Position numbers and translations under genes: made by a program
In this document: in pieces, positions 9,330-23,443 of the stretch
How positions within the stretch are numbered: position 1 is the stretch's first letter
Layout: the number at the start of each line of letters is the position of its first letter
The notes under the pieces: generated by a model
What the model was told of the DNA's origin: nothing
What the model saw: the letters and a program-made list of their open reading frames with translations, nothing else
Databases searched by the model: none
Assembly: GCA_022842785.1 (NCBI GenBank)
Contig: JALHOW010000006.1
Span: 62,001 to 126,000, forward strand
Direction: 5' to 3'
Length of the DNA: 64,000 nucleotides
Source of the DNA: Hyphomicrobiaceae bacterium
GTDB lineage: Bacteria; Pseudomonadota; Alphaproteobacteria; Rhizobiales; Hyphomicrobiaceae

Positions 9330-10276
9330 CAGCGTGGCCTCAGGCGTGGATCGAGATAGGGATAGGCGAGATCGACAATGAGGTTCGTCGTGATGAACAG
9401 GCAGGCCGTGATCATGACGCCGGCCTGAACGATCCCGTATTCGCGATTGAGGACCGCATTGGTGATCATCTGACCGACGCCCGGAAGCGAGAAGACCGTC
9501 TCGGTCAGCACCGCGCCCTGGAGTAGGGCACCAAGTTGCAGCCCGAGGATCGTCACGAGCGGCATGAGGATGTTGCGCAATCCATGAACCCAGACGACGC
9601 GCCAGTTCGGCTCACCTCGGGCGCGCGCTGCCGCTATATAGGGTTGCTCGAGCACTTCGATGAGATTGGCGCGCGTCATGCGCACGATCATGGCGAGGAA
9701 GTAGATCGAGAGCGTGATGGCCGGCAGCGTCAAGTGGCTGACGCCCGCCCAGAAATCCTCCCAGGGTGCGACGAACCCCATGGTTGGGAAGAGGCCGAAC
9801 TTCACGCCGAACAACCAGATGAGCAGGATGCCGAGATAAAAGCTCGGGAACGACGTGCCGGTGAGCGTGAAGACCGAAGTTGCGGCATCCCAGATCGAAC
9901 CGCGTCGCGTCGCGGCGAGCACGCCGAGCGGCACTCCGATCAGGACCGAGAGCGCGAGCGCCGACGCCGCAAGCGTCAGCGTCACGGGCAGCGCCTCGAC
10001 GACTGCGAACTGGAAGATCGGCGCCTTGGACACATAAGACACGCCCCAATCGCCAGTGACGAAGCTGCCGAGCCAGCGCAGGTACTGCTCGATCATGGAC
10101 CGATCGAGCCCCAGCTGCTTCATCAGCGATGTGTATGCCTCCGGCGAGTACTCCGTTCCGAGCATGATCTGGATCGGATCGCCCGGCGCCAGCTTCAGCA
10201 ACGTGAAGCTGACGGCCGAGACGATCAGCAGGACCATCAGGGTCTGGAGTATCTTGCCGGCGGCAAACAGCAGCAT
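9329..10276 (-). CDS. Dipeptide-type ABC transporter permease (DppB type)
   Basis: Inner-membrane permease of 315 aa. An N-terminal helix is followed by LKLAPGDPIQIMLG and the GLD-R...QYLRWLG region diagnostic of DppB/OppB. The coupling loop is AARARGEPNWRVVWVHGLRN and the protein ends with DPRLRPR. The ATG at 10276-10274 overlaps the binding-protein stop as TGATG; longer frames upstream of this would lie inside the binding-protein gene. Confidence 0.92.
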   Translation of the reverse strand: MLLFAAGKILQTLMVLLIVSAVSFTLLKLAPGDPIQIMLGTEYSPEAYTSLMKQLGLDRSMIEQYLRWLGSFVTGDWGVSYVSKAPIFQFAVVEALPVTLTLAASALALSVLIGVPLGVLAATRRGSIWDAATSVFTLTGTSFPSFYLGILLIWLFGVKFGLFPTMGFVAPWEDFWAGVSHLTLPAITLSIYFLAMIVRMTRANLIEVLEQPYIAAARARGEPNWRVVWVHGLRNILMPLVTILGLQLGALLQGAVLTETVFSLPGVGQMITNAVLNREYGIVQAGVMITACLFITTNLIVDLAYPYLDPRLRPR

Positions 10277-11871
10277 CAGCCGAGGCTCACCGTATGCAGG
10301 TTGAGGCTGTCGACGGGGATGTACTTGAAGCCCTTCACCTTCTGCGAGAAGACCTTGAACACCGGCATGTGCGAGATGATCGCGATGGGCGCCTCGTCCA
10401 TCAGAATGTCGCAGGCCTCGGTGTAGAGCACCTTGCGCTTCGCCACATCGAGCGTGTCCTGCGCGTCCGTAACGAGCTGGTCGAAGCGCTTGTTCGACCA
10501 GCCGGGATAGTTCCACGGTTCGCCGGAGCGGAACTCGGGCGTGATAGTCTCATCGGGATCGAGGTCCGCCCACCAGTTGAAGTCGAAAAGATCCCAGTCG
10601 CCGGCATTGCGCTTCTGGATCCAGGCGGCGCGCTCGACGACCTCGATCTTCGGCTTGATGTCGATGGCGGCCAGCATGGGCAGTACGCTCTGCATGAGGC
10701 GCGTGCCGTAGATGCCCTGCTCGGTCGCGAGGAAGACAGGCTCGATCGTGCCCTTCACCTTCGATTTGGCGCGGAATTCCTTGGCCTTGGCCATGTCAAA
10801 GAATTGGCCACGACCGGATTTGGCGACATCGGGATCATAGAAGTCGCTCATGGGCGGCGAGATCGGCGTGTAGGCCTGGATGGCATGGCCGAAGAAGGCC
10901 TGCTTGATCACGATCTCGCGGTTGAGGGCGAATGCTACGGCGCGGCGCAGGTCCATGTCGTCGAACGGCGCGCGCTTGCAGTTCATGCCGACGTAGACGT
11001 AGTTGCCTTCGATCTCGCCGTAGACCTGCAGATTCTTCTGCGCCTGGATCTGGCTGACGAACTGCACCGGAATTTCGCTCATGCCGTCGATCTGGCCGGA
11101 GAGCATGGCCGCAATGGCCGCTGAAGCCTCCTTCATGATGACGAATGTCGCCCGGTCGAGCTTCGGCAGGCCCTTCTCGAAGTAGTCGGGATTCTTCTCG
11201 ACGACGATCGAGTCGTTCTCGCGCCAGCTGACGAACTTGAATGGTCCCGTGCCGACAGGATTGCGACCGAACTTGTCGCCGTATTTCTCAACAGCCGCCT
11301 TCGAGACGATCGTTCCCGCGCGGCCAGTGCTGCCTGTGAGTGCGACGGGAAGGAATGCGTACGGCTTGTTGAACGTCAGACGCACGGTCAGCGGATCGAG
11401 AACCTCGACATTGTTCAGCTCTTTGTACTTCCAGGCGTGCGGCGACTTCGGCGTGCCCTTCCACACCCGCTCGACGCTCCACTTGACGGCTTCGGCATCG
11501 CAGGGTGTGCCGTCATGGAACTTCACGCCCGGATGCAGCTTGAAGGTATGGACCTTGTCGTCATTGATTTCCCACGTCTGCGCGAGATCCGGCACGAAGG
11601 AGACGCGCTTGCCATCGTACTCGACCTTCAGCAGGCCGTTGTAGATGTTGTTGTGGATCTTCACCGCGCCGAGAAAGCCGGTGAAATGCGGGTCCAGCGT
11701 ATCGACGTGATCGATCCACGCGAGGCGGATGTGGCCACCATTGGCATGTGCCGGGCGCGAACCAAGACCCGTGGAGAGAACGGCTGCGCCCGCACCTAGA
11801 CCGCCCAACACCTGGCGGCGATTGATCTGGCCGAGAACCCGCTCTTCCAGAATGCTCTTGTGATCGACCAT
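10276..11871 (-). CDS. ABC transporter substrate-binding protein, family 5 (peptide/nickel type)
   Basis: Periplasmic receptor of the importer, 531 aa. It has a Tat signal (NRRQVLGGLGAGAA, arginines at 18-19, cleavage near AHA at 41-43) and the SBP_bac_5 fold marker VKFHDGTPCDAEAVKWSVER. It is first in a five-gene operon (receptor, two permeases, two ATPases) in which every junction overlaps by one or four bases. A sigma-54 promoter lies about 135 bases upstream on the same strand. The ligand may be a peptide, glutathione-like or opine-like compound; the sequence alone does not decide. Confidence 0.92.
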   Translation of the reverse strand: MVDHKSILEERVLGQINRRQVLGGLGAGAAVLSTGLGSRPAHANGGHIRLAWIDHVDTLDPHFTGFLGAVKIHNNIYNGLLKVEYDGKRVSFVPDLAQTWEINDDKVHTFKLHPGVKFHDGTPCDAEAVKWSVERVWKGTPKSPHAWKYKELNNVEVLDPLTVRLTFNKPYAFLPVALTGSTGRAGTIVSKAAVEKYGDKFGRNPVGTGPFKFVSWRENDSIVVEKNPDYFEKGLPKLDRATFVIMKEASAAIAAMLSGQIDGMSEIPVQFVSQIQAQKNLQVYGEIEGNYVYVGMNCKRAPFDDMDLRRAVAFALNREIVIKQAFFGHAIQAYTPISPPMSDFYDPDVAKSGRGQFFDMAKAKEFRAKSKVKGTIEPVFLATEQGIYGTRLMQSVLPMLAAIDIKPKIEVVERAAWIQKRNAGDWDLFDFNWWADLDPDETITPEFRSGEPWNYPGWSNKRFDQLVTDAQDTLDVAKRKVLYTEACDILMDEAPIAIISHMPVFKVFSQKVKGFKYIPVDSLNLHTVSLG

Positions 11872-12186: not shown

Positions 12187-12588
12187 TCACGGCGACAACG
12201 ACTCGATGATCCGGCAATTGGCGATGGTGCCATGGCGGCATTGCGTGATCATGTTGCTCAGCTCACGCCTCAGCGCGCGAAGGTCGGCGATCTTGCGATC
12301 GACTTCGGTCAGGTGCGTCTGGGCAATAATGTCGACGGCTTCGCATGGCCGCTCGCGGTCGTCGGAAAGGTCGAGCAGGGCGCGGACCTGCTCAAGTGAG
12401 AAGCCGAGATCGCGCGAGCGCCGGATGAAGCTCAGCCGGTTCAAGTGTTCCGCGCCATAAGCTCTGTAGTTGCCGGCCGTCCGCTCCGGCTTTGCGAGTA
12501 GGCCGATACGCTCGTAGTAGCGGATCGTCTCGACCTTTGTGCCGGTGAGCCTTCCAAGTTCGCCGATCGCAAGATGCCCGTCAGTCAT
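12187..12588 (-). CDS. MerR-family heavy-metal regulator (ZntR/CadR/PbrR-like)
   Basis: Cytoplasmic metal sensor of 133 aa that activates by untwisting a promoter with an over-long spacer. The N-terminal winged helix is IGELGRLTGTKVETIRYYERIGLL, followed by a long dimerisation helix. A single Cys precedes that helix (RERPCEAVD), and the C-terminal metal loop CRHGTIANC has two Cys separated by seven residues, as in CadR/PbrR/ZntR. ATG 12588 begins right before the HTH; an upstream in-frame ATG at 12633 would place the start inside the shared promoter dyad. It is divergent from the metal-exporting ATPase. Confidence 0.88.
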   Translation of the reverse strand: MTDGHLAIGELGRLTGTKVETIRYYERIGLLAKPERTAGNYRAYGAEHLNRLSFIRRSRDLGFSLEQVRALLDLSDDRERPCEAVDIIAQTHLTEVDRKIADLRALRRELSNMITQCRHGTIANCRIIESLSP

Positions 12589-12593
12589 GGCCC

Positions 12594-12626
12594 TTGACCC
12601 TGTAGTTGCTACAGGGTGCATATAGG
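12594..12626 (+). promoter_or_regulatory. MerR-type operator/promoter of the metal ATPase
   Basis: A perfect 9-bp dyad (ACCCTGTAG at 12597-12605, 3-base spacer, CTACAGGGT at 12609-12617) sits between a -35 TTGACC (12594-12599) and a -10-like CATATA/TATAGG (12619-12626). The spacing is 19 bp or more, longer than the usual 17, which is the hallmark of MerR-activated promoters. The dyad closely resembles CadR/PbrR/ZntR operators. It drives the P-type ATPase at 12660 and overlaps the region where the regulator's own transcript begins. Confidence 0.85.
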
Positions 12627-12659
12627 GTGTCACGTCGCATTCGTCGAGGTGACAACATA

Positions 12660-14783
12660 ATGACCGCTAGCAGCTTCAAGATACGTGTCGAGGGCATGGA
12701 TTGCCCGGCCTGCGCTCTCAAGATCGAGAATGCCGTGCGCCGGCTTCCGGGCGTCTCGGAAATCAATGTCAGCTACACATCAGGTACCCTGGCGCTCCAG
12801 GTCGATAAAGATCGCACGTCACCTCGCACGATCGAGGAGAAGGTCCGCGCGCTCGGGTACACGCCTGTCGTGGCCCACGCGCCCGGCGCCCAGATGCCGC
12901 AACGGCTGGCGTGGTCATGGTGGCAGGAAACCAAGGGGCAGCTCGTACTCGCGACGGGTGCGCTGTTTGTCCTGGCGTTCGTGCTCGCGTGGTTTCTGCC
13001 CGATTGGCAGCGATGGCTTTACTCAGCCGCAGCGCTGATCAGCGTGATCCCATTTGCTCGCCGTGCGCTTGCCGGCGCACTCTCAGGATCACCCTTCACT
13101 ATTGAAAGCCTCATGACGATTGCCGCGCTCGGAGCGGTCGCGATCGGCGAGGCAGAAGAGGCTGCGATTGTCATTTTCCTTTTCGCCGTGGGTGAGCTGC
13201 TGGAGACCGTCGCCGCAGGCCGTGCTCGCGCGGGAATAGAGGCGCTGATCGATCTCGTGCCGCGAACGGCAAGGCGGCAGCGCGGAACACGCGATGAAAT
13301 CGAGGAGGTGGCCGCGGCAGATCTCGCTGTCGGCGATGTGATCGTGATCCGCCCGGGTGATCGCATTCCGTCGGACGGCAAAGTCATCGACGGTGCTTCC
13401 GAGGTCGACGAAGCGCCGATCACGGGAGAGTCCGTGCCGGTCGCCAAGGAGCGCGGTGCCAAAGTATATGCCGGCAGTATCAATGCCCATGGTGAGCTGC
13501 GCGTCGAGGTCACTCACGCGGCCGCAGACAATACGATCGCTCGCATCATCCATCTCGTGGAGGAAGCACAGGAAGCGAAAGCGCCGACGGCGCGGATGAT
13601 CGACCGCTTCAGTCGGTGGTACACACCCGGCGCAATGCTTTTGGCCCTTTTGGTCATCGTCATTCCTCCTCTCGCCTTCGGCGGTGACTGGATGACCTGG
13701 ATCTATCGCGGTCTTGCCACACTGCTGATCGCTTGCCCGTGCGCATTGGTGATCTCAACGCCGGCCGCTATAGCCTCCGGTCTTGCTACAGGTGCCCGAA
13801 TGGGCTTGCTGATCAAGGGCGGCGCGGCTCTGGAGACACTCGGCAAGATAAGGACGGTGGCATTCGACAAGACCGGCACGCTGACGCGCGGCCGGCCGCA
13901 GGTAACGGATGTCATCGCTGTCGAGGGTGACGAGAACGTCGTGCTTGCAAAGGCTGCGGCTGTCGAACGCAACACGAGCCATCCTCTGGGACTGGCGATC
14001 GTGGAAGCTGCACAAGCGCGGAGCCTCGAACTGCCGACCACCTTCGGCGGTGCAACGGCAGTGCCGGGCAAAGCCGTGACCGCACGCTTGAAGAGTGGCT
14101 TCGCCTCAGTCGGCTCACCTCGTTACGCAGCCGAGCAGACGACAATCGCGCCGTATCTCGCTGAGAGAATCTCTGTGCTCGAAGGCGAGGGAAAGACCGT
14201 CGTCGTTCTCCTATCCGGCAAGGCCATCGACGGGTTGATCGCGCTGCGCGACGAACCGCGCGAGGATGCGGCGGAGGGTGTGAAACGGCTTGTCGAGCGT
14301 GGCATCCGAGCCGTGATGCTGACGGGCGACAATGCGCGCACGGCCGGCGCGATTGCCGGCAAGCTTGGCATCGAAGCGCGTGCGGAGCTGCTGCCCGATG
14401 CAAAGCTTGCCGAAATCGGCAGGCTCAAGGATATGGGGCCGATCGCGATGGTCGGTGATGGAATCAATGACGCTCCAGCCCTCGCTGCGGCATCGGTCGG
14501 TGTTGCCATGGGTGGCGGAACAGATGTCGCACTCGAGACGGCCGATGCAGCGCTGCTCATGAACCGCGTGACCGGCGTTGCGGAGCTGATCGCTCTTTCG
14601 CAAGCGACGCTCGCCAACATCTGGCAGAACATTGCCATCGCGCTCGGTCTCAAGGCCGTGTTTCTCGTGACCACTCTTCTTGGCGTTACCACGCTGTGGA
14701 TGGCGATCCTCGCCGATACCGGCGCCACGGTGCTCGTGACCGCCAACGCCCTCCGCCTGCTCACGATGCGGTCGTTTCGCTAG
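12660..14783 (+). CDS. zntA: Zn/Cd/Pb-exporting P1B-type ATPase
   Basis: Inner-membrane heavy-metal efflux pump of 707 aa. Domains in order: an N-terminal HMA metal-binding domain with GMDCPAC (about residues 11-17), membrane helices, the actuator motif ITGESVPV, the channel motif CPCALVIST, phosphorylation site FDKTGTLTRG, the SHPLGLAIVE nucleotide-binding motif, MLTGDN and VGDGINDAPALA. The last helix contains ADTGATVLVTANALRLL; that Asp is the extra ligand of Zn2+/Cd2+/Pb2+ pumps, setting it apart from Cu+ pumps. ATG 12660 is chosen because it starts at the HMA domain; the frame is open back to 12606. Regulation is by the divergent MerR protein. Confidence 0.93.
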   Translation: MTASSFKIRVEGMDCPACALKIENAVRRLPGVSEINVSYTSGTLALQVDKDRTSPRTIEEKVRALGYTPVVAHAPGAQMPQRLAWSWWQETKGQLVLATGALFVLAFVLAWFLPDWQRWLYSAAALISVIPFARRALAGALSGSPFTIESLMTIAALGAVAIGEAEEAAIVIFLFAVGELLETVAAGRARAGIEALIDLVPRTARRQRGTRDEIEEVAAADLAVGDVIVIRPGDRIPSDGKVIDGASEVDEAPITGESVPVAKERGAKVYAGSINAHGELRVEVTHAAADNTIARIIHLVEEAQEAKAPTARMIDRFSRWYTPGAMLLALLVIVIPPLAFGGDWMTWIYRGLATLLIACPCALVISTPAAIASGLATGARMGLLIKGGAALETLGKIRTVAFDKTGTLTRGRPQVTDVIAVEGDENVVLAKAAAVERNTSHPLGLAIVEAAQARSLELPTTFGGATAVPGKAVTARLKSGFASVGSPRYAAEQTTIAPYLAERISVLEGEGKTVVVLLSGKAIDGLIALRDEPREDAAEGVKRLVERGIRAVMLTGDNARTAGAIAGKLGIEARAELLPDAKLAEIGRLKDMGPIAMVGDGINDAPALAAASVGVAMGGGTDVALETADAALLMNRVTGVAELIALSQATLANIWQNIAIALGLKAVFLVTTLLGVTTLWMAILADTGATVLVTANALRLLTMRSFR

Positions 14784-14918: not shown

Positions 14919-14947
14919 TTGACTCGGTCGATCGACCGAACTAATAT
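14919..14947 (+). promoter_or_regulatory. Sigma-70-type promoter with palindromic operator in the spacer
   Basis: TTGACT (14919-14924), a 17-base spacer and TAATAT (14942-14947) form a near-consensus promoter 26 bases before the TetR start codon. The spacer holds a perfect 16-bp palindrome, TCGGTCGATCGACCGA (14924-14939), the expected layout for an autorepressing TetR dimer blocking RNA polymerase. The rest of 14784-14918 has a small GGCCCG/CGGGCC hairpin (14795-14810) after the metal ATPase and nothing else I can support. Confidence 0.75.
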
Positions 14948-14972: not shown

Positions 14973-15587
14973 ATGTCGCGCGCGCTCTCGAAAAAGGCAG
15001 ATACCAGCGTCGCCCTTCTGGAGGCCGCCAAGAAGGTGCTGCGCCAGAAGGGGTATGCCGGTTTGTCGACGCGTGATGTCGCTACGGCTGCTGATGTTCC
15101 GTTGAGCCAGATTCACTATCACTTCGGCTCAAAGCAGGGGCTGATGCTGGCGCTGTTCGAGTACCTGAACACGCAGCTTCTCGAACGCCAGAACGCACTT
15201 TTCGGTGATCCTGCGCTCAAGCTCTCGGAGCAGTGGGACAAGGCATGCGATTATCTCGATGAGGATATCGCGTCGGGTTACGTGCGCGTTCTGCAGGAGC
15301 TGAACGCCGCGAGTTGGTCCGATCCCGAGGTCGCGAAAGTTGTCCGAACCGGTCTCAAGGGATGGATGGACCTTATTTCCGACCTCGCGCGCAGGGCCGA
15401 GCGGGAACTCGGCAGTCTTGGGCCATTCTCGCCGGAGGAGATTGGCGCACTTGTCGGCGGCGTCTTCATCGGAGCGGAAGTTCACTATCTGCTCGGTCTC
15501 GAGAGGAGAGGTATTCCCGTGCGTCAATCGTTGCGGCGCGTCGGCGATCTCATTCGCATTGCAGAGGGAAGTTCATTGAAGAGATGA
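14973..15587 (+). CDS. TetR-family transcriptional regulator
   Basis: DNA-binding repressor of 204 aa. The N-terminal helix-turn-helix (about residues 10-60) reads LLEAAKKVLRQKGYAGLSTRDVATAADVPLSQIHYHFGSKQGLM, typical of the family; the rest is a helical ligand-binding and dimerisation domain. It is the first gene of a three-gene unit with the hydrolase-glycosyltransferase fusion (14 bases downstream) and a methyltransferase. The palindrome in its own promoter suggests that it represses the whole unit until a small ligand binds. The ligand is unknown, perhaps the substrate or product of the two enzymes. Confidence 0.9.
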   Translation: MSRALSKKADTSVALLEAAKKVLRQKGYAGLSTRDVATAADVPLSQIHYHFGSKQGLMLALFEYLNTQLLERQNALFGDPALKLSEQWDKACDYLDEDIASGYVRVLQELNAASWSDPEVAKVVRTGLKGWMDLISDLARRAERELGSLGPFSPEEIGALVGGVFIGAEVHYLLGLERRGIPVRQSLRRVGDLIRIAEGSSLKR

Positions 15588-15601: not shown

Positions 15602-17710
15602 ATGCGTGCCAAGCTGCCGGATCACGAAGGGTATGTCGAACGCGACGGGGTGAAGATCCACTACGAAGTGTGCGGTGATGGTGCGGAGACCATCGTATTC
15701 CCGCCGCCCTGGAGCATTGTTCATGCTCGCGTGTACAAGGCGCAGATCCCGTACTTCAGCGAGCGCTTCCGCTGCATTACCTTCGATCCGCGCGGCAACG
15801 GTCGCTCCGATCGACCCGGGGATGTCGCTGCCTACAGCCTCGACAACTACGTCGCCGACATCCTCGCTGTGCTGGATGAGGTGGCGGCCCACAAAGTCAT
15901 CATGGTGGGGCTCTCGGCTGCCGGAATTCACTCCTGCGTCCTGGCCGCTCATCACCCTGAGCGAGTCAAGGCCGCGATTCTCGTCGGCACAGCGGGCACG
16001 GTCGGTCCCGCCTACCCCTACATGCTGCCGCAGCACTTCGCGACCAAGCGGCAGACCTTTGAAGGTTGGGACAAGTACAACCGTGACTACTGGCTGACCA
16101 ACTATCGTGACTTCGCCGAGCACTTCGTCCGTCATATCTGCAGCGAACGTCATTCGAGCAAGCAGATCGAGGACGGCATCGCGTGGGCGAATGAGACCAC
16201 AGGTTTCATACTTGCCAAGACGGTGGAGGCGCGATCGATTCCGCCTTCGTTCGATGTCAGTGAAGCGATGTATCGAAAGATACGCTGCCCAATTCTGGCG
16301 ATACACGGCGATGACGACCAGATACAGCCCTGCGCCCGTGGAAGGTTCATCGCGGAGCTGACGGGCGCCGAGTTCGTCGGCATACCTGGCGGCGGTCACA
16401 ATGTGCTCGCGCGCTTCCCGGCCAAGTGCAACGAGCTTATCAATGACTTCCTCGACCGCAGGCTCGGCATTCCCGCACCGGGGCGGAGGCCGGCTTCGCG
16501 CACGGCTCGTGTCAAGAAGGCGCTGTATCTGTCCTCACCCATCGGTCTTGGTCATGGTCGTCGCGACATTGCCATTGCGCGAGAGCTGCGCAAGATCCAC
16601 CCGGATCTGCAAGTCGACTGGCTGGCGCAGGATCCGGTGACGCGCCTGCTCGATGCCAGTGGCGAGCATATCCACCCTCTCAGTGCGCGACTGGCGAGCG
16701 AATCGAAGCACATCGAACTCGAATCCGGTGAGCATGACCTCAATGCATTCCAGGCCATTCGCCGGATGGATGAGGTGCTGATCGCCAATTTCATGATCTT
16801 CCAGGATGCGGTGGACGACGGCGGCTATGATCTCGTGATCGCTGACGAGGCCTGGGACATCGATCACTTCTGGCATGAGCATCCAGAATTGAAGAAGACC
16901 AAGCTCGCCTGGCTCACGGACTTCGTCGGCTATGTGCCGATGCCGGCGAACGGTGCGCGAGAGGCGTTTCTCACGACAGACTACAACGCCGAGATGATCG
17001 GGCACGTCGAGCGGCATCCGCAGGTGCGTGACCGCGCGATATTCGTTGGTGAACCCGAGGACATCGTGCCGCTGTCATTCGGCCAGGATCTACCGGCGAT
17101 ACGCGACTGGGTGCCGAAGCATTTCGACTTCGCTGGTTATGTCATCGGCGAGCACCCAAAGTCATTCGGATCGCGTGCCGAACTGCGTCACAAGCTCGGC
17201 TACCGGCCGGATGAGCGCGTCTGCATCGTCACGGTCGGCGGATCGGGCGTCGGAACGCATCTGATCAAACGCATCCTGCAGAGCTACCCGATGGCGCGAG
17301 CCAGGATGCCCGATCTGCGCATGGTTCTCGTCGCGGGGCCGCGCATCGATCCTGCATCTCTGAATGCGCCGGCGGGGGTCGAGGTGCGTGCGTTCGTGCC
17401 GAATCTCGATCGCCATCTAGCGGCGTGCGATCTCGCGCTCGTGCAGGGTGGTCTCACGACCTGCATGGAGCTGACGGCCGCCGGGACGCCGTTCATCTAC
17501 TTCCCGCTCCGCAATCACTTCGAGCAGAACTTCCACGTCGCTCACCGCCTCGATCGCTACGGTGCAGGGCGGCGCATGGACTACGCAACCTCGCCCCCGG
17601 ACATGATCGCCAGCGCCATGGTCGAGGCACTGAAGTCTTCGACGCAGTTCAAACCCGTCGAAGCCGGCGGCGCCGCGCGAGCCGCTCGAATGCTGGCGGA
17701 ATTGATCTGA
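15602..17710 (+). CDS. Fusion of alpha/beta hydrolase and GT28/UGT-like glycosyltransferase
   Basis: A 702-residue protein with two enzyme domains in one uninterrupted frame. Residues 10-287 are an alpha/beta hydrolase: oxyanion region FPPPWSIVH, FDPRGNGRSDRP, nucleophile Ser105 in VGLSAAG (the fifth elbow position is Ala instead of Gly), acidic Asp237-239 and His266 in GGGHN. After a Pro/Arg-rich linker (288-304), residues 305-702 resemble MurG/UGT-type GT-B glycosyltransferases: SSPIGLGHGRRD at the start and the C-terminal donor-site block VQGGLTTCMELTAAGTP...HFEQN at 614-643. The start is ATG 15602 with GAGGTGG upstream. It could hydrolyse and glycosylate the same lipid or polyketide-like compound. 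No signal peptide is seen, so it is probably cytoplasmic or membrane-peripheral. Confidence 0.85.
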   Translation: MRAKLPDHEGYVERDGVKIHYEVCGDGAETIVFPPPWSIVHARVYKAQIPYFSERFRCITFDPRGNGRSDRPGDVAAYSLDNYVADILAVLDEVAAHKVIMVGLSAAGIHSCVLAAHHPERVKAAILVGTAGTVGPAYPYMLPQHFATKRQTFEGWDKYNRDYWLTNYRDFAEHFVRHICSERHSSKQIEDGIAWANETTGFILAKTVEARSIPPSFDVSEAMYRKIRCPILAIHGDDDQIQPCARGRFIAELTGAEFVGIPGGGHNVLARFPAKCNELINDFLDRRLGIPAPGRRPASRTARVKKALYLSSPIGLGHGRRDIAIARELRKIHPDLQVDWLAQDPVTRLLDASGEHIHPLSARLASESKHIELESGEHDLNAFQAIRRMDEVLIANFMIFQDAVDDGGYDLVIADEAWDIDHFWHEHPELKKTKLAWLTDFVGYVPMPANGAREAFLTTDYNAEMIGHVERHPQVRDRAIFVGEPEDIVPLSFGQDLPAIRDWVPKHFDFAGYVIGEHPKSFGSRAELRHKLGYRPDERVCIVTVGGSGVGTHLIKRILQSYPMARARMPDLRMVLVAGPRIDPASLNAPAGVEVRAFVPNLDRHLAACDLALVQGGLTTCMELTAAGTPFIYFPLRNHFEQNFHVAHRLDRYGAGRRMDYATSPPDMIASAMVEALKSSTQFKPVEAGGAARAARMLAELI

Positions 17711-17741: not shown

Positions 17742-18815
17742 ATGTCACAGGCAACAACCCCTGTTGATGAGAATAAGCTCAACGCATTCATCGGTCAGAT
17801 GCTCTCCGACCTAGGCGGCGCGTCCAGCGTCGCGATGATCCGCATGGGCGATGCGCTCGGTCTGTATAAGTTGATCGACGCCAAGGGCCCAATGACTTCG
17901 TCCGAGCTTGCCAAGACTGCGAAAGTCGATGAGCGCTATGCTCGCGAATGGCTGTCCCATCAGGCAGCTTCGAACTACCTCACCTATGACCCTGCATCGG
18001 CCCGCTTCTCGTTGCCGCCCGAGCAGGCGATGGTGTTCGCCGATGAGCAAAGTCCCATCTATATGATGGGTGGCTTCGATCTGATGGCCGCGTTACTCGA
18101 GAACCAATCGAAGGTTCAAGCGGCATTCAAATCCGGTGGCGGCGTCGCATGGGGAGAGCAGGCGGGATGCATGTTCTGTGCAGTCGCCAGGTTCTTCCGG
18201 CCCGGCTATCAGAACAATCTCGTCGCTTCGTGGCTTCCCGCGCTCGATGGCGTCGTGGCGAAGCTCGAACGCGGCGCGAAAGTCGCTGACATCGGTTGCG
18301 GACATGGCTGGTCGACCGTGCTCATGGCCAAGTCGTTCCCGAAATCGCAGTTCATCGGGTTTGATTTTCATCCCGGCTCGATTGAGGACGCGCAAGCACA
18401 CGCGAAATCGCATGGTGTCTCGGAGAATGCGCGGTTCGAAGTCGGCTTGGCGAAAGATTATCCCGGTAAGGATTTCGACCTAGTGACGTGCTTCGACTGC
18501 CTGCATGACATGGGCGATCCTGCAGGCGCTGCGGCGCACATCCGTCAGTCTCTGAAAGCCGACGGGACATGGATGATTGTCGAACCTATCGCCGGCAACA
18601 GTCTCAATGAGAACCTCAATCCGGTCGGTCGCCTGTACTACGCAGCTTCGACAATGATCTGCATTCCCACTTCGCTGTCGCAAGAGGTTGGTTCGGCGCT
18701 CGGCGCTCAGGCCGGTGAGGCGAAGTTGCAGGAGGTCATCAAGGCCGGCGGCTTCAAGAGCGTCCGCCGAGCAACTGAAACACCCTTCAACATGATCCTC
18801 GAGGCGCGACCGTAG
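17742..18815 (+). CDS. SAM-dependent methyltransferase with N-terminal winged helix (Rv2258c-like)
   Basis: Class I methyltransferase of 357 aa. Residues 1-95 form a winged-helix dimerisation domain (GLYKLIDAKGPMTSSELAKTAKVDERYAREWL), as in Rv2258c-like and many small-molecule methyltransferases. The Rossmann domain follows, with motif I VADIGCGHGWST near 182-193, an acidic residue in FIGFDFHPGS and motif DLVTCFDCLHDMGDP near 246-260. It lies 31 bases after the hydrolase-glycosyltransferase gene with a ribosome site (CTTTCAGGAG) and is probably co-transcribed. The acceptor is unknown; context suggests modification of the same product. Confidence 0.88.
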   Translation: MSQATTPVDENKLNAFIGQMLSDLGGASSVAMIRMGDALGLYKLIDAKGPMTSSELAKTAKVDERYAREWLSHQAASNYLTYDPASARFSLPPEQAMVFADEQSPIYMMGGFDLMAALLENQSKVQAAFKSGGGVAWGEQAGCMFCAVARFFRPGYQNNLVASWLPALDGVVAKLERGAKVADIGCGHGWSTVLMAKSFPKSQFIGFDFHPGSIEDAQAHAKSHGVSENARFEVGLAKDYPGKDFDLVTCFDCLHDMGDPAGAAAHIRQSLKADGTWMIVEPIAGNSLNENLNPVGRLYYAASTMICIPTSLSQEVGSALGAQAGEAKLQEVIKAGGFKSVRRATETPFNMILEARP

Positions 18816-18843: not shown

Positions 18844-18896
18844 GCCCTATCGCCGGGTTACCTTCAGCCTTGGCCGCGAAGGCGAAGCGATAGGGC
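18844..18896. terminator. Nested hairpin between convergent genes
   Basis: An outer 10-bp perfect stem (GCCCTATCGC 18844-18853 with GCGATAGGGC 18887-18896) encloses an inner stem (CCTTC 18861-18865 with GAAGG 18878-18882, and a GCC/GGC pair inside). It lies between the convergent methyltransferase (ends 18815) and IclR gene (stop at 18864) and includes the last codons of the latter. It is a plausible bidirectional end structure, without a clear T-tract. Confidence 0.5.
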
Positions 18897-19658
18897 ATTG
18901 ACGGCCTCCATCGCGCAATCGCGCAGATCGCGCAGCTTCGGCAGCGTGAAGCGACTGCTCGGTCCCGACAGGCTGATGCCGCCGAGCGGTCGCTTGGCGG
19001 ACGCCTCGAATACAGGCACCGCAACGCAACGCATATCATCGGCAAACTCGAAGTCGTCGTACGCATATCCCTGCGCGCGCACTTTGAGCAGCTCCGCGCG
19101 GAAGCGCTGCGGAGTAGTGATCGTATTGCGCGCCTGCTTCGGCAGCCCCTGCCGAATAGCTGCCTCGATCATCGGTGCGTCTTCATAAGCGAGCAGCAGT
19201 TTGCCGATCGAGGTGCAGTGCAATGCCGCGCGATCGCCGATGTGGAAGTCTATCGCGACCAACTGTGTCCCCTTTGTGCGCTGCACGAGAATGGCGCAGT
19301 CGCGATCGAGCACGGAGTAATGAACGGCCTCGCCCGTGCGCGATGAGACTTCTCGCAGGCACTCCTGGATGAGTTCCGTTCTCTCGTCGTCGCTCAGCAG
19401 GCCACGGCTCAGCTTCAGGATCTTGTAGCCGAGCCGATATCCCCGCGTGCGCGGATCTCGCACGACATAGCCCGCCTCCATCAGCGTCATCAGCATCCGG
19501 TAGGCGGTGCTGCGCTCCGTTTCGATGATGCTCGCGACCTCGGAAGCGGACAGCGGCGCGCGCGCCTCCGCCAGCACCTCGACCACACGGAGTGCGCGCA
19601 GCGCCGTGGTGCTCTTGTTCGGATCGGCAGTTTTGAGCTGCGTGGGATGACGCCCCAA
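18864..19658 (-). CDS. IclR-family transcriptional regulator
   Basis: DNA-binding regulator of 264 aa. The N-terminal winged helix (about residues 15-75) includes ALRVVEVLAEARAPLSASEVASIIETERSTAYRMLMTL; the C-terminal effector domain includes HYSVLDRDCAILVQR, ALHCTSIGKLLLAY and VAVPVFEASAKRPLGGISLSGP. No ATG is available in frame near the HTH. TTG 19658 is chosen because GGAGA lies seven bases upstream and the length fits the family. It is divergent from the sugar ABC operon at 19853 and probably controls it. Sugar-acid or aromatic effectors are common for the family. Confidence 0.85.
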   Translation of the reverse strand: MGRHPTQLKTADPNKSTTALRALRVVEVLAEARAPLSASEVASIIETERSTAYRMLMTLMEAGYVVRDPRTRGYRLGYKILKLSRGLLSDDERTELIQECLREVSSRTGEAVHYSVLDRDCAILVQRTKGTQLVAIDFHIGDRAALHCTSIGKLLLAYEDAPMIEAAIRQGLPKQARNTITTPQRFRAELLKVRAQGYAYDDFEFADDMRCVAVPVFEASAKRPLGGISLSGPSSRFTLPKLRDLRDCAMEAVNALSLRLRGQG

Positions 19659-19681
19659 GTCTTTGTCTCCATTGCCACTCA

Positions 19682-19739
19682 GCAATATTTGTACGCATGA
19701 GATGCAGCTATTGCAATATTCGTTTGCAGCGTGCAATTC
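19682..19739. promoter_or_regulatory. Candidate IclR operator region with repeated GCAAT sites
   Basis: GCAATATT occurs at 19682-19689 and again at 19713-19720, exactly 31 bp (about three helical turns) apart. A further GTGCAATTC lies near 19731-19739, and ATTGCAAT is itself palindromic. The cluster sits in the divergent region between the IclR gene and the sugar importer, where a shared operator is expected. Confidence 0.4.
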
Positions 19740-19852
19740 TTGTTCATCAATGAAGAAGCTTGAACTGCAGGGGAGCGGATGAAGCGGAGGGGCGCAGAGT
19801 CGCGGCAATCGATCGGCGGTTGGTCGCGTGATGCTGCCTGCGGGAGGCTCAT

Positions 19853-21400
19853 ATGAGCGCCGCGGCTTCAGCGACGGCTGCGGTTCGAGCCGAGGCGAAT
19901 CCGCCATTCCTGAGCATGAGCGGCATCAGCAAGCGCTACGATGCAACGCAGGCGCTGCGCGACGTTGCCTTCTCGGCAGAAAGTGGTGTGGTGCACGCCC
20001 TCGTCGGCGAGAATGGCGCGGGCAAGAGCACGTTGGTGAAGATCATCACCGGAGCCGTGCAAGCGGACACGGGCCAGATCCTGGTGAACGGCGCGCCGAT
20101 GGGGATCGAGAGCCCGCTGGCCGCGCAGCGCCTTGGCATCCGCGTCGTGCATCAGCACGTGAGCTTGGTGCCGCACCTTTCCGTCAGTGAAAACATCCAT
20201 CTCGGCGCGATGCCGACTCGCATTGGTGGTCTCTGGATCGACTGGCGTGCAGCGCACGAGCGGGCCGAACGCGCGCTTGAGGCGATCGGCTTCAGCGGCA
20301 TCGACGTTCGTCTTCCGGTCTCCAGCTTGAGTCTTGGCCAGCGCAAAATTGTCGAGATTACCAAGGCGTGCGTGGTCCGCCCGCGCATACTCATCATGGA
20401 CGAGCCGTCGGCCGCTCTGTCGTTCGACGAACGTGGGCGACTGTTCGATCTCATTCGCCAGCTCAAATCGGACGCGACGTCGATCATCTACATCTCACAC
20501 GATCTCGATGAAGTGCTCGAGATCGCCGATCGCGTGACGGTGCTGCGTGATGGGATGATCATCGGGACGATGCCTGCCGCCACGACGGATAAGCGGCAGA
20601 TCGTCGAGATGATGGTGGGACGCGTCGTCAATGACATCTTTCCGGATCGGCACGCACGTCCAGGTCGGCAAGAAGAAGTCCTGAGCCTCAAGGGTCTTAG
20701 TTGCGGAGCGCGCTTTGATGATGTGTCGTTCACCGTTGCCAAAGGCGAGATTGTCGGTCTTTACGGGCTGATCGGAAGTGGTCGCACCGAAGTCGCGCGC
20801 TGCATCTTCGGCGCTGACCAGCCGACGAGCGGCGAGATCCAGCTCAAGGGCCGTGTGGTACGGCCACGCTCGCCGCGTGATGCTCTCAGAGCCGGCATAG
20901 CCATGCTGACCGAGGATCGCACGCGTGACGGCCTCGTGCTGTTTCTCTCGACATGCGACAACATCAGCCTCGCCAATTTCGATCGCACGAGCCGGTACGG
21001 GCTCATCCAGCGTCGCCGCCAGCGCGCCATGGTGACCGAAAAGGTCGCAGAGCTCGGGATCCGACCGAAGAATATCGATCAGCCTGTTCGCTCACTCAGC
21101 GGCGGCAATCAGCAGAAAGTGGCACTCGCAAAGTGGCTGCTCGCTCGGGTCGACGTACTCATTCTCGATGAGCCGACCTGGGGCGTGGACATTGCCGCTA
21201 AGCAGGACATCTACGAAGTCATTCGACGCGTCGCCGCAGAAGGCATGGCCATCCTGCTGATCTCGTCGGAGCTTCCCGAGGTCATCGGCATGAGCGACCG
21301 TATTCTTGTCATGCGCCGTGGCCGCCTTGTTGGCGAGGTGCCTCGGCGTGACGCAACAGAACGCAATCTGGTGGCGCTCGCTGCCGGCAGCATGGGATAG
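19853..21400 (+). CDS. Sugar ABC transporter ATP-binding protein (RbsA/MglA type)
   Basis: Double ATPase of 515 aa that powers a ribose-type sugar importer. The first nucleotide-binding domain has Walker A GENGAGKST, a relaxed signature LSLGQRKIVEI and Walker B ILIMDEPSAALS. The second has the degenerate Walker A GLIGSGRTE typical of this family, a canonical LSGGNQQKVALAKWL and Walker B LILDEPTWGVD. The order ATPase, permease, binding protein follows at 19853-23443. The pentose, hexose or polyol carried cannot be told from the sequence. Confidence 0.92.
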   Translation: MSAAASATAAVRAEANPPFLSMSGISKRYDATQALRDVAFSAESGVVHALVGENGAGKSTLVKIITGAVQADTGQILVNGAPMGIESPLAAQRLGIRVVHQHVSLVPHLSVSENIHLGAMPTRIGGLWIDWRAAHERAERALEAIGFSGIDVRLPVSSLSLGQRKIVEITKACVVRPRILIMDEPSAALSFDERGRLFDLIRQLKSDATSIIYISHDLDEVLEIADRVTVLRDGMIIGTMPAATTDKRQIVEMMVGRVVNDIFPDRHARPGRQEEVLSLKGLSCGARFDDVSFTVAKGEIVGLYGLIGSGRTEVARCIFGADQPTSGEIQLKGRVVRPRSPRDALRAGIAMLTEDRTRDGLVLFLSTCDNISLANFDRTSRYGLIQRRRQRAMVTEKVAELGIRPKNIDQPVRSLSGGNQQKVALAKWLLARVDVLILDEPTWGVDIAAKQDIYEVIRRVAAEGMAILLISSELPEVIGMSDRILVMRRGRLVGEVPRRDATERNLVALAAGSMG

Positions 21401-21405
21401 GCGCA

Positions 21406-22362
21406 GTGGTTTCGACGACGCAGAAATGGTGGCCAACACGCAGCGAACTCAGGCTGTCCTGGCTCGATCTCGGCCTGATCGTTGCGCTCGTGGTGCTCGT
21501 CATTGCGGGCACGTGGTTTGCCGAATCCTTCCTCACGCAGCGTAATTTCTCGAACCTACTCCGCCAGATCGTGGCCAATGGCCTCGTCAGTCTCGGCATG
21601 CTGATCGTGATTCTCACGGGTGGGATCGATCTGAGCGTCGGATCGATCGTAGCACTCGGTGGTGTGTTGTTTGCAGGTCTCACGGATCAGATCGGCATTG
21701 GCCCTGCAATCCTGGTCGCCATGGCGGCCGGCGCTGCCGTCGGGATTGTGAACGGTACGGCGATCGCGCGCTTCAAGCTGCAACCCTTCATCGTGACGCT
21801 CGCCACCATGGGAATCGTACGCGGCATCGTCTTCATCTACACCGAGACGCCGATCGTGCCCGCGCATGCGGGCTTCCGCGACCTGGGCTCGTCGGTTGTT
21901 GGGCTGGTCTCCGTCGGCATGATCATCATGCTCGCTTGCTATGCGCTCGGCTGGATCTTTCTCAACCGCACACCGGCAGGTCGCGCGACCGTCGCCGTTG
22001 GTGGAAACGAGGAAGCTGTCCGCCTCGCGGGCATCAATGTGAACCGCACGATCGTCCTTGCCTACACACTCTGCGGCGTGCTGTCGGCACTGTCCGGCGC
22101 CATTCTCGTATCGCGCCTCGGTATCGCACAACCGAGCCTCGGTGTTGCCTACGAGCTGGACGCCATTGCCGCCTGCGTGATCGGCGGTGCCGTGCTCGGC
22201 GGCGGAGGCGGTGGCGTCATCGGCACGTTTCTCGGCGTGCTCACGCTCGGGCTCATCAACAATCTGCTCAATCTCATGGGCGTCAAGAGCTTCTACCAGG
22301 AGATCGTGAAGGGCTCCCTGATCCTGCTGGCCGTGCTGATCGCCAGCAGAAGGAAGCGATAG
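21406..22362 (+). CDS. Sugar ABC transporter permease (RbsC type)
   Basis: Inner-membrane permease of 318 aa with 8-10 hydrophobic helices. Family blocks include LIVILTGGIDLSVGSIVALGG, FIVTLATMGIVRG, AVGGNEEAVRLAGINV (cytoplasmic coupling loop) and YELDAIAACVIGGAVLGGG. The start is GTG 21406, five bases after the ATPase stop; the ribosome site is weak, which suggests coupled translation. It forms a homodimeric channel in characterised relatives. Confidence 0.9.
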   Translation: MVSTTQKWWPTRSELRLSWLDLGLIVALVVLVIAGTWFAESFLTQRNFSNLLRQIVANGLVSLGMLIVILTGGIDLSVGSIVALGGVLFAGLTDQIGIGPAILVAMAAGAAVGIVNGTAIARFKLQPFIVTLATMGIVRGIVFIYTETPIVPAHAGFRDLGSSVVGLVSVGMIIMLACYALGWIFLNRTPAGRATVAVGGNEEAVRLAGINVNRTIVLAYTLCGVLSALSGAILVSRLGIAQPSLGVAYELDAIAACVIGGAVLGGGGGGVIGTFLGVLTLGLINNLLNLMGVKSFYQEIVKGSLILLAVLIASRRKR

Positions 22363-22495
22363 GGAGCTGTTTCGATGGATCGGTCGCTCGGCAAGAAAGG
22401 AGGATGAAGCGGTCGACAGCAGCATCTGAAATCGAGAAGAACAATGGCTCGGGCGCTCAAGCGGACCGCGCTGAAATCAGTGAGGAGGAACGAAG

Positions 22496-23443
22496 ATGAA
22501 GCAGATACTGGCCGCGGGCCTTTGCGCGCTCGCCCTCTCGGGCTTCTCTATCCCGGCTCAAGCCCAAGCCAAGAAGGAACTCAAGATCGGTGTCGTGACG
22601 CTGCAGATGAAGGCGCCGTTCTTCATTGCCGTCGTGCGCGCGCTCGAGGCCGAGGCCCCGCAATACAAGAACGTCAAGATCATTGTCGCGGACGGCAATG
22701 GCGATGTCGCCAAGGTCAGCTCCGACATCGAGGACCTGCTCGCTCAGAACGTGGACGGGTTCATCATGAACATCAGCCCGCTCGAGGCGCTTCCTGGCCC
22801 ACTCGAGGCGATCAAGGAAGCAGGCAAGCCGATCGTGCTGCTGAATCGCAAGCTCAAGGGCGGGGAGTACGACACGTGGATCGGCGCGGACAATCTCGCG
22901 ATCGGCGCGGGAGTCGGCGAGGCCATCGCGAAGAGCATGGGGGGTAAGGGCACGCTCCTCATGATCCGCGGTGGTCCCGCCGACAACAGCACGGGCAACG
23001 CGCGGCGCGATGGCGTTCTCTCGAAGGTCAAGGACACGTCGATCAATGTGGTTTCCGCTCCGGAGTTCGGCCGCTGGTCCGAGGATGGCGGTATCCGGAT
23101 CATGGAAGACATGCTCACAAAGCACAAAGAGATCGATGCGGTGTTCTGCGAGAACGATGCCATGTGTCTCGGTGCGCAGAAGGCGATTGCAGACGCCAAG
23201 AAATCCGGCCAGATCAAGGTCTTCGGGATCGATGGTCAGAAGGCCGCGCTCGCCCAGATTCAGCAGGGCACGAACTACACGGCGAGCGGCCTCAACTCGG
23301 CGGATATTCTCGCGCGTATGGGATTCCAGCGCATGATGGCCATTCTCGCCGGTGCCGTTCCCGAGAAAGATACGACGACACCCGTCATCGTCATCAACAA
23401 GGACAATGTCGGGTCCTTTTATAATCCGAATTCTATCTTCTAG
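22496..23443 (+). CDS. Sugar ABC transporter substrate-binding protein (RbsB type)
   Basis: Periplasmic receptor of 315 aa with a Sec signal peptide (MKQILAAGLCALALSGFSIPAQAQA, cleavage near residue 22-24) and the periplasmic-binding-protein type 1 fold, e.g. IGVVTLQMKAPFFIAVVRALEAEA, DLLAQNVDGFIMNISP and AVFCENDAMCLGAQKAI. A strong site, GAGGAACGAAG, precedes ATG 22496. A 133-base gap separates it from the permease gene and holds two very short coupled reading frames (see findings). A hairpin follows the gene. Confidence 0.92.
   Translation: MKQILAAGLCALALSGFSIPAQAQAKKELKIGVVTLQMKAPFFIAVVRALEAEAPQYKNVKIIVADGNGDVAKVSSDIEDLLAQNVDGFIMNISPLEALPGPLEAIKEAGKPIVLLNRKLKGGEYDTWIGADNLAIGAGVGEAIAKSMGGKGTLLMIRGGPADNSTGNARRDGVLSKVKDTSINVVSAPEFGRWSEDGGIRIMEDMLTKHKEIDAVFCENDAMCLGAQKAIADAKKSGQIKVFGIDGQKAALAQIQQGTNYTASGLNSADILARMGFQRMMAILAGAVPEKDTTTPVIVINKDNVGSFYNPNSIF

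Follow-up and report, generated by a model that had tools for sequence, protein, structure and literature searches.

Why should a single open reading frame encode both a hydrolase and a glycosyltransferase, and on what would its two halves act? The question is raised by a stretch of 64,000 nucleotides from a Hyphomicrobiaceae bacterium (contig JALHOW010000006.1; we call the whole stretch analysed the window), in which such a fusion gene, a tetR gene and a methyltransferase gene all lie on one strand. We found that in relatives the fusion and its TetR regulator stay together, while the methyltransferase may be of the window's type, may be the known methanethiol S-methyltransferase MddA, or may be missing. 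With even confidence, we propose that these genes form a TetR-repressed, inducible operon which chemically alters a single kind of small toxic molecule and most likely renders it harmless.

The preliminary description of this locus had read the frame as an alpha/beta hydrolase joined by a short Pro/Arg linker to a glycosyltransferase with a recognizable donor-site block, and the frame is indeed laid out in this way:

15602-17710, + strand: hydrolase-glycosyltransferase fusion, a single frame with an ATG start, 702 amino acids
15602-16471, + strand: alpha/beta-hydrolase half, residues 1-290, with Ser105 at 15914-15916, Asp239 at 16316-16318 and His266 at 16397-16399
16472-16516, + strand: Pro/Arg-rich variable linker of low conservation, residues 291-305
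16517-17707, + strand: GT-B (GT1-like) half, residues 306-702, with His318 at 16553-16555 and Asp415 at 16844-16846
17444-17491 and 17522-17527, + strand: donor sites of the glycosyltransferase half, namely the donor block and Glu641-Gln642

The Pfam families Abhydrolase_1 and Glyco_tran_28_C match residues 45-269 (2.2e-23) and 542-687 (7.6e-10) of the fusion, and its AlphaFold model has a predicted local distance difference test score (pLDDT) of 92. The glycosyltransferase half was folded and fold-searched alone, because the hydrolase half filled the fold-match list of the full model. As modelled, the chain holds two real enzyme folds with predicted activities: an alpha/beta hydrolase carrying a Ser-Asp-His triad on its nucleophile elbow, and a GT-B nucleotide-sugar glycosyltransferase of the antibiotic/UGT type (GT1-like), with an N-terminal His and its Asp and an acidic-Gln pair closing the C-terminal donor motif. 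The residues Ser105, Asp239 and His266 do not vary among the 76 distinct intact homologues (680-760 amino acids; ten shorter or broken sequences were excluded). The triad first proposed, Ser105/Asp237-239/His266, is thus narrowed to Asp239, since Asp237 is kept in 55 of the 76. His318, Asp415, Glu641 and Gln642 are likewise invariant (76/76), and we take their roles to be those of their counterparts in GT1 enzymes; most of the donor block, QGGLTTCMELTAAGTP at residues 615-630, is invariant as well. Mean conservation in the linker is 0.32, against 0.60 and 0.77 for the two halves.

The fused domain order is a property of the family and not of one assembly. It had been stated that the two activities are normally separate proteins; this is not supported for these halves, since a profile of the glycosyltransferase half matches 8 of 385 Alphaproteobacteria genomes, the window's own included, as seven full fusions and one C-terminal remnant of 110 residues. 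The copy at 15602-17710 is the only full-length match in its own 4.98-Mb genome, and full-length fusions occur in four of the five genus genomes and seven of the 103 family genomes (both counts include that of the window), one named carrier being Hyphomicrobium sp. CS1BSMeth3 (locus L016, genome G003). In public genomes the glycosyltransferase half matches 276 places; the best 80 of these were kept, so that locus counts lean to close relatives, and across these best 80 its identity is 67-89%. Among 87 loci with this half, which include several genomes present twice, the whole hydrolase lies in the same frame in 80, only the hydrolase end in four, and the glycosyltransferase has its own frame in three (L058, L067 and L068, the last cut by a contig end). 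An artefact of sequencing or assembly that joined two genes is thereby ruled out. Assemblies labelled as Betaproteobacteria and as SAR324 share this order, and in the genus to which G678 belongs (Bradyrhizobium, judging by tree placement) 21 of 195 genomes carry the fusion family. A more distant copy (L104/L106, 46%) is likewise fused with a TetR gene upstream, and a Deinococcus plasmid copy (52.5%), also preceded by a TetR gene, is annotated as two genes and broken within the glycosyltransferase half. At L058 an apparent natural split, a stop followed by an ATG inside the linker, suggests that covalent joining of the halves is not strictly needed.

Some arrangements around these copies deserve mention. 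L070 (1930-4976) has an additional stand-alone hydrolase ahead of the fusion, and L067 (4894-7194) resembles it in a reduced form, with a hydrolase ending at its own stop, an apparent second hydrolase frame and then the glycosyltransferase frame; hydrolase copy number therefore varies. Remnants of the glycosyltransferase half occur in two genomes (L101/L107 and L192), and mddA persists beside the L192 remnant. The distant copy at L106 (2938-8912) adjoins enoyl-CoA-hydratase-like, SnoaL-like and AtuA-like genes (the first and last named from reading), possibly hinting at a carbon source.

The regulator and its control region lie directly upstream of the fusion:

14919-14947, + strand: predicted sigma-70-type promoter, TTGACT at 14919-14924, a 17-nt spacer and TAATAT at 14942-14947
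14924-14939, no strand: probable TetR operator TCGGTCGATCGACCGA, a perfect palindrome (TCGGTCG-N2-CGACCGA) across the promoter spacer
14973-15587, + strand: TetR-family regulator of 204 amino acids (Pfam TetR_N, 4.7e-13), ending 14 bases before the fusion

To describe the neighbourhood, genes were sought by tblastn (E <= 1e-10) up to about 6 kb on each side of 85 non-redundant loci, the window included; 73 of these are well flanked, with at least 1.4 kb known upstream and 1 kb downstream. TetR is the constant partner of the fusion, standing beside it in 72 of the 73. Among the 72 leaders that could be extracted, 69 score more than 8 bits for a palindrome like that of the window ahead of the lead gene, compared with 6 of 1440 letter-shuffled leaders; the refined profile was trained on the same leaders that it scores, and the shuffles control composition only. 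The leaders lacking a site above 8 bits are those of L057 and of L025 and L049, both near contig starts. The exact form TCGGTC-N4-GACCGA is present in 40 of 72 leaders; strict palindrome forms occur in 39 of 71 and are absent elsewhere in those loci, and Rhodobacterales-like loci have drifted versions of the site, ATTCGTTCGAACGAAT being an example. Within the window's genome TCGGTCGATCGACCGA has a single perfect copy, with six further places at one mismatch. A sigma-70 scan of the leader, weak by itself, gave two overlapping forms against a shuffle mean of 1.2, and the predicted promoter coincides with the conserved palindrome. A TetR gene adjoining its target, with a palindrome in the promoter, is the layout of a TetR-autoregulated operon, and the palindrome is a probable operator. 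PDB relatives of the regulator gave no pointer to its ligand.

Either kind of methyltransferase gene can have the palindrome ahead of it. Of the 28 leaders in which mddA comes first, 27 have the site, in front of mddA, and mddA therefore appears to be part of the TetR regulon in these loci. In L035 and L052 a methyltransferase of the window's type is divergent and each arm has a site, both with one mismatch in L052.

The methyltransferase itself was placed by the preliminary description, together with TetR, in a compact cluster with the fusion. The TetR part of that cluster is conserved, as shown above; the window's methyltransferase is not a conserved partner.

17742-18815, + strand: S-adenosylmethionine-dependent methyltransferase of 357 amino acids with winged helix-turn-helix and Methyltransf_31 domains, starting 31 bases after the fusion

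Its winged-helix match in Pfam is the 'Rv2258c-like winged HTH domain'. Among the 85 loci, 13 carry this type, 37 carry MddA (recognized, apart from the copies scored directly, by tblastn matches to the L018 copy alone), none carries both and 35 carry neither, which rules out a constant trio of TetR, fusion and window-type methyltransferase; the well-flanked loci divide into 12, 34, 0 and 27. In 21 fusion-family genomes of the genus of G678, partly the same as the 85 loci, we counted MddA in 15, the window type in five, both in none and neither in one (L190, on a short contig), with TetR in 20. With relatedness ignored, Fisher's test gives p 2.1e-4 for the mutual exclusion of the two methyltransferases and p 2.7e-4 for the association of the fusion with MddA in the family. 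There, MddA scores above the NF045656 equivalog cut-off (270 bits) in 13 of 103 genomes and adjoins the fusion in five of the seven fusion genomes, all five of these linked copies passing. The MddA copies of loci L018, L029, L036, L040 and L061, scored directly, reach 339-377 bits. The other two fusion genomes, the window's (G000, with zero matches to NF045656) and G004, have the window-type enzyme instead. At one locus, L094, a UbiE-type methyltransferase takes their place downstream.

How the methyltransferases came to be exchanged was approached with quick trees, with support from the Shimodaira-Hasegawa-like approximate likelihood ratio test (SH-aLRT) only and midpoint rooting of the fusion tree. 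The fusion tree requires five changes of the window-type label, two of them forced by strong branches. In the MddA tree (51 rows), MddA sequences from outside the operon surround the operon copies of L014, L029 and L036 (SH-aLRT 98), and two changes are forced. Renewed recruitment of methyltransferases is apparently the simplest account, favoured also because MddA lies downstream in L029, L036 and L061; operon copies of MddA that escaped to other places would be an alternative account. Judged from these sequences, methylation is an optional third step, with an exchangeable enzyme of predicted activity.

We then compared the parts with known systems. Scores below curated cut-offs rule out a plain identity with PcaD, EstT, the macrolide glycosyltransferases or MurG: the hydrolase half reaches 91.2 for NCBIfam PcaD (3-oxoadipate enol-lactonase; cut-off 255.85) and 42.1 for EstT (macrolide esterase; 450), and the glycosyltransferase half 41.5 for TIGR01426 (MGT; 260) and 29.4 for TIGR01133 (MurG; 250.25). 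With the esterase and enol-lactonase hydrolases 5egn (Est816), 3t4u and 2xua the hydrolase half shares its fold, its Ser-Asp-His triad and 23-28% identity (phmmer 2.6e-20 with 5egn over residues 11-139), but here the hydrolase is fused to a glycosyltransferase. The glycosyltransferase half aligns at 17-20% identity with antibiotic/macrolide and UGT-type enzymes (2iya, CalG1, CalG2, YojK and UGT109A1), from which it differs in a donor block that begins Gln-Gly-Gly; to our knowledge none of these is fused to a hydrolase. Another enzyme-glycosyltransferase fusion in a natural-product pathway is reportedly that of a fungal triterpene enzyme, neither an alpha/beta hydrolase nor bacterial. In the open-licence literature searched we found no description of a hydrolase-glycosyltransferase fusion or of a like operon, which agrees with the earlier view of the cluster as undescribed.

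The window's methyltransferase is related to TnmJ (8g5s; E 1.2e-54) and to methyltransferase 5f8c (3.6e-39), although the genomic setting of both differs. With its 357 amino acids and a winged helix-turn-helix domain it is longer than MddM1 and MddM2, which have 210 and 204 amino acids according to PMC12904073. A PDB search with MddA gave no match. Many Rhizobiales are described in PMC5607357 as having two distinct MddA forms, and the operon MddA may be one of them; what sets it apart is its place behind a TetR-type palindrome together with the fusion. The parts covered of PMC5607357, PMC6524544 and PMC12904073 contain nothing on operon neighbours of MddA.

From these results we infer repressor binding, ligand, substrate, reaction order and detoxification as follows. 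TetR would sit on the palindrome between the -35 and -10 elements and be released on binding the target molecule or a relative of it. The hydrolase half would open an ester, lactone or similar bond through its triad, and the glycosyltransferase half would attach a sugar to that molecule at a hydroxyl or thiol group, with His318 as base, Asp415 as its helper and the nucleotide sugar held at Glu641-Gln642. One of two unrelated methyltransferases, the membrane protein MddA or the soluble enzyme of the window, would cap a further nucleophile, probably a thiol in the case of MddA. Disarming is favoured by the combination of hydrolysis, glycosylation and methylation, by a repressor of a ligand-sensing type, by the patchy spread and by the varying helpers. 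A narrower form is possible but tentative: the operon would be a resistance module, its target a natural product with thiol and ester groups that the fusion opens and glycosylates and that MddA S-methylates.

Several results weigh against the disarming proposal. The methyltransferases are missing from the 35 loci noted above, and neither kind is peculiar to the fusion, because, of the 96 family genomes that lack the fusion, 8 have an MddA above the cut-off, and 20 of all 103 have relatives of the window's enzyme at E <= 1e-40; a second window-type copy (46% identity) lies without a fusion in the window's own genome (G000:C6:296518-297567, L161). The palindrome profile was, as stated, scored on its own training leaders. 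Nine UDP-GlcNAc 2-epimerases and two MurG entries stand among the 50 fold-match rows of the glycosyltransferase half, and non-hydrolysing epimerases have the same GT-B fold. Finally, the very high conservation of this half among the best 80 loci suits one fixed acceptor rather than broad detoxification.

This conservation also speaks for the tailoring of a product of the cell's own, in which the hydrolase would free or cyclise the acceptor, the glycosyltransferase glycosylate it, the methyltransferase finish it and TetR time production. Many fold matches of the glycosyltransferase half are antibiotic-biosynthetic transferases, and TnmJ, the closest relative of the window's methyltransferase, is placed in tiancimycin biosynthesis by PMC9464397. 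However, no scaffold-making genes were noticed nearby by open-frame clustering, a survey not aimed specifically at polyketide or peptide synthases, and the neighbours of the fusion vary, TetR excepted. We consider own-product tailoring rather unlikely, on a level with the resistance module.

Less probable still is a sulfide or methanethiol stress operon, in which the chief role would fall to MddA or its substitute as producer of dimethylsulfide, and the fusion would deal with by-products. MddA is present in 37 of 85 loci, mostly behind the common palindrome, and PMC12904073 treats S-methylation of hydrogen sulfide and methanethiol as a likely detoxification. Yet it is TetR and the fusion that stay constant, not a methyltransferase: 35 loci have neither kind and 13 have the other; moreover, the fusion-tree branches adjoining the distant copy L106 carry neither, under midpoint rooting only. 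That the hydrolase acts after the glycosyltransferase and removes an acyl group from the glycoside, the second option of the preliminary description, is very improbable: its fold fits esterases, but nothing favours this order, and its best sequence relatives are esterases, one of which degrades acyl-homoserine lactones.

Around the operon, a MerR-type regulator (12187-12633, - strand) is divergent from a heavy-metal P-type ATPase (12606-14783, + strand) directly upstream, and beyond it lies a solute-binding protein of family 5 (10276-11871, - strand). An IclR regulator (18864-19907, - strand) and a sugar-type ABC transporter cluster, so labelled from translations (19853-23443, + strand), are also present. 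In other genomes, 14 of the 35 loci without either methyltransferase have DUF1326 and/or PpoB2 (a Pfam copper chaperone, PF09948). The two lie downstream of the fusion in Rhodobacterales-like loci (L055, L058, L060, L064, L067, L068, L082, L083, L085, L086 and L090), and only one of them in L070, L072 and L081. The open-licence literature searched yielded no paper on DUF1326 with DUF2182.

These findings show a hydrolase-glycosyltransferase domain order kept across many Alphaproteobacteria, and link mddA, which serves as a marker gene for dimethylsulfide formation, to a probably inducible hydrolase-glycosyltransferase. The promoter offers a direct handle for finding the inducer, which would in turn point to the substrate. 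If palindrome-linked MddA copies use another substrate, mddA gene counts would overstate the dimethylsulfide pathway in soils; and if the resistance module is the true reading, part of the MddA family in relatives of Bradyrhizobium, Reyranella and Hyphomicrobium would be drug-modifying enzymes and not makers of dimethylsulfide.
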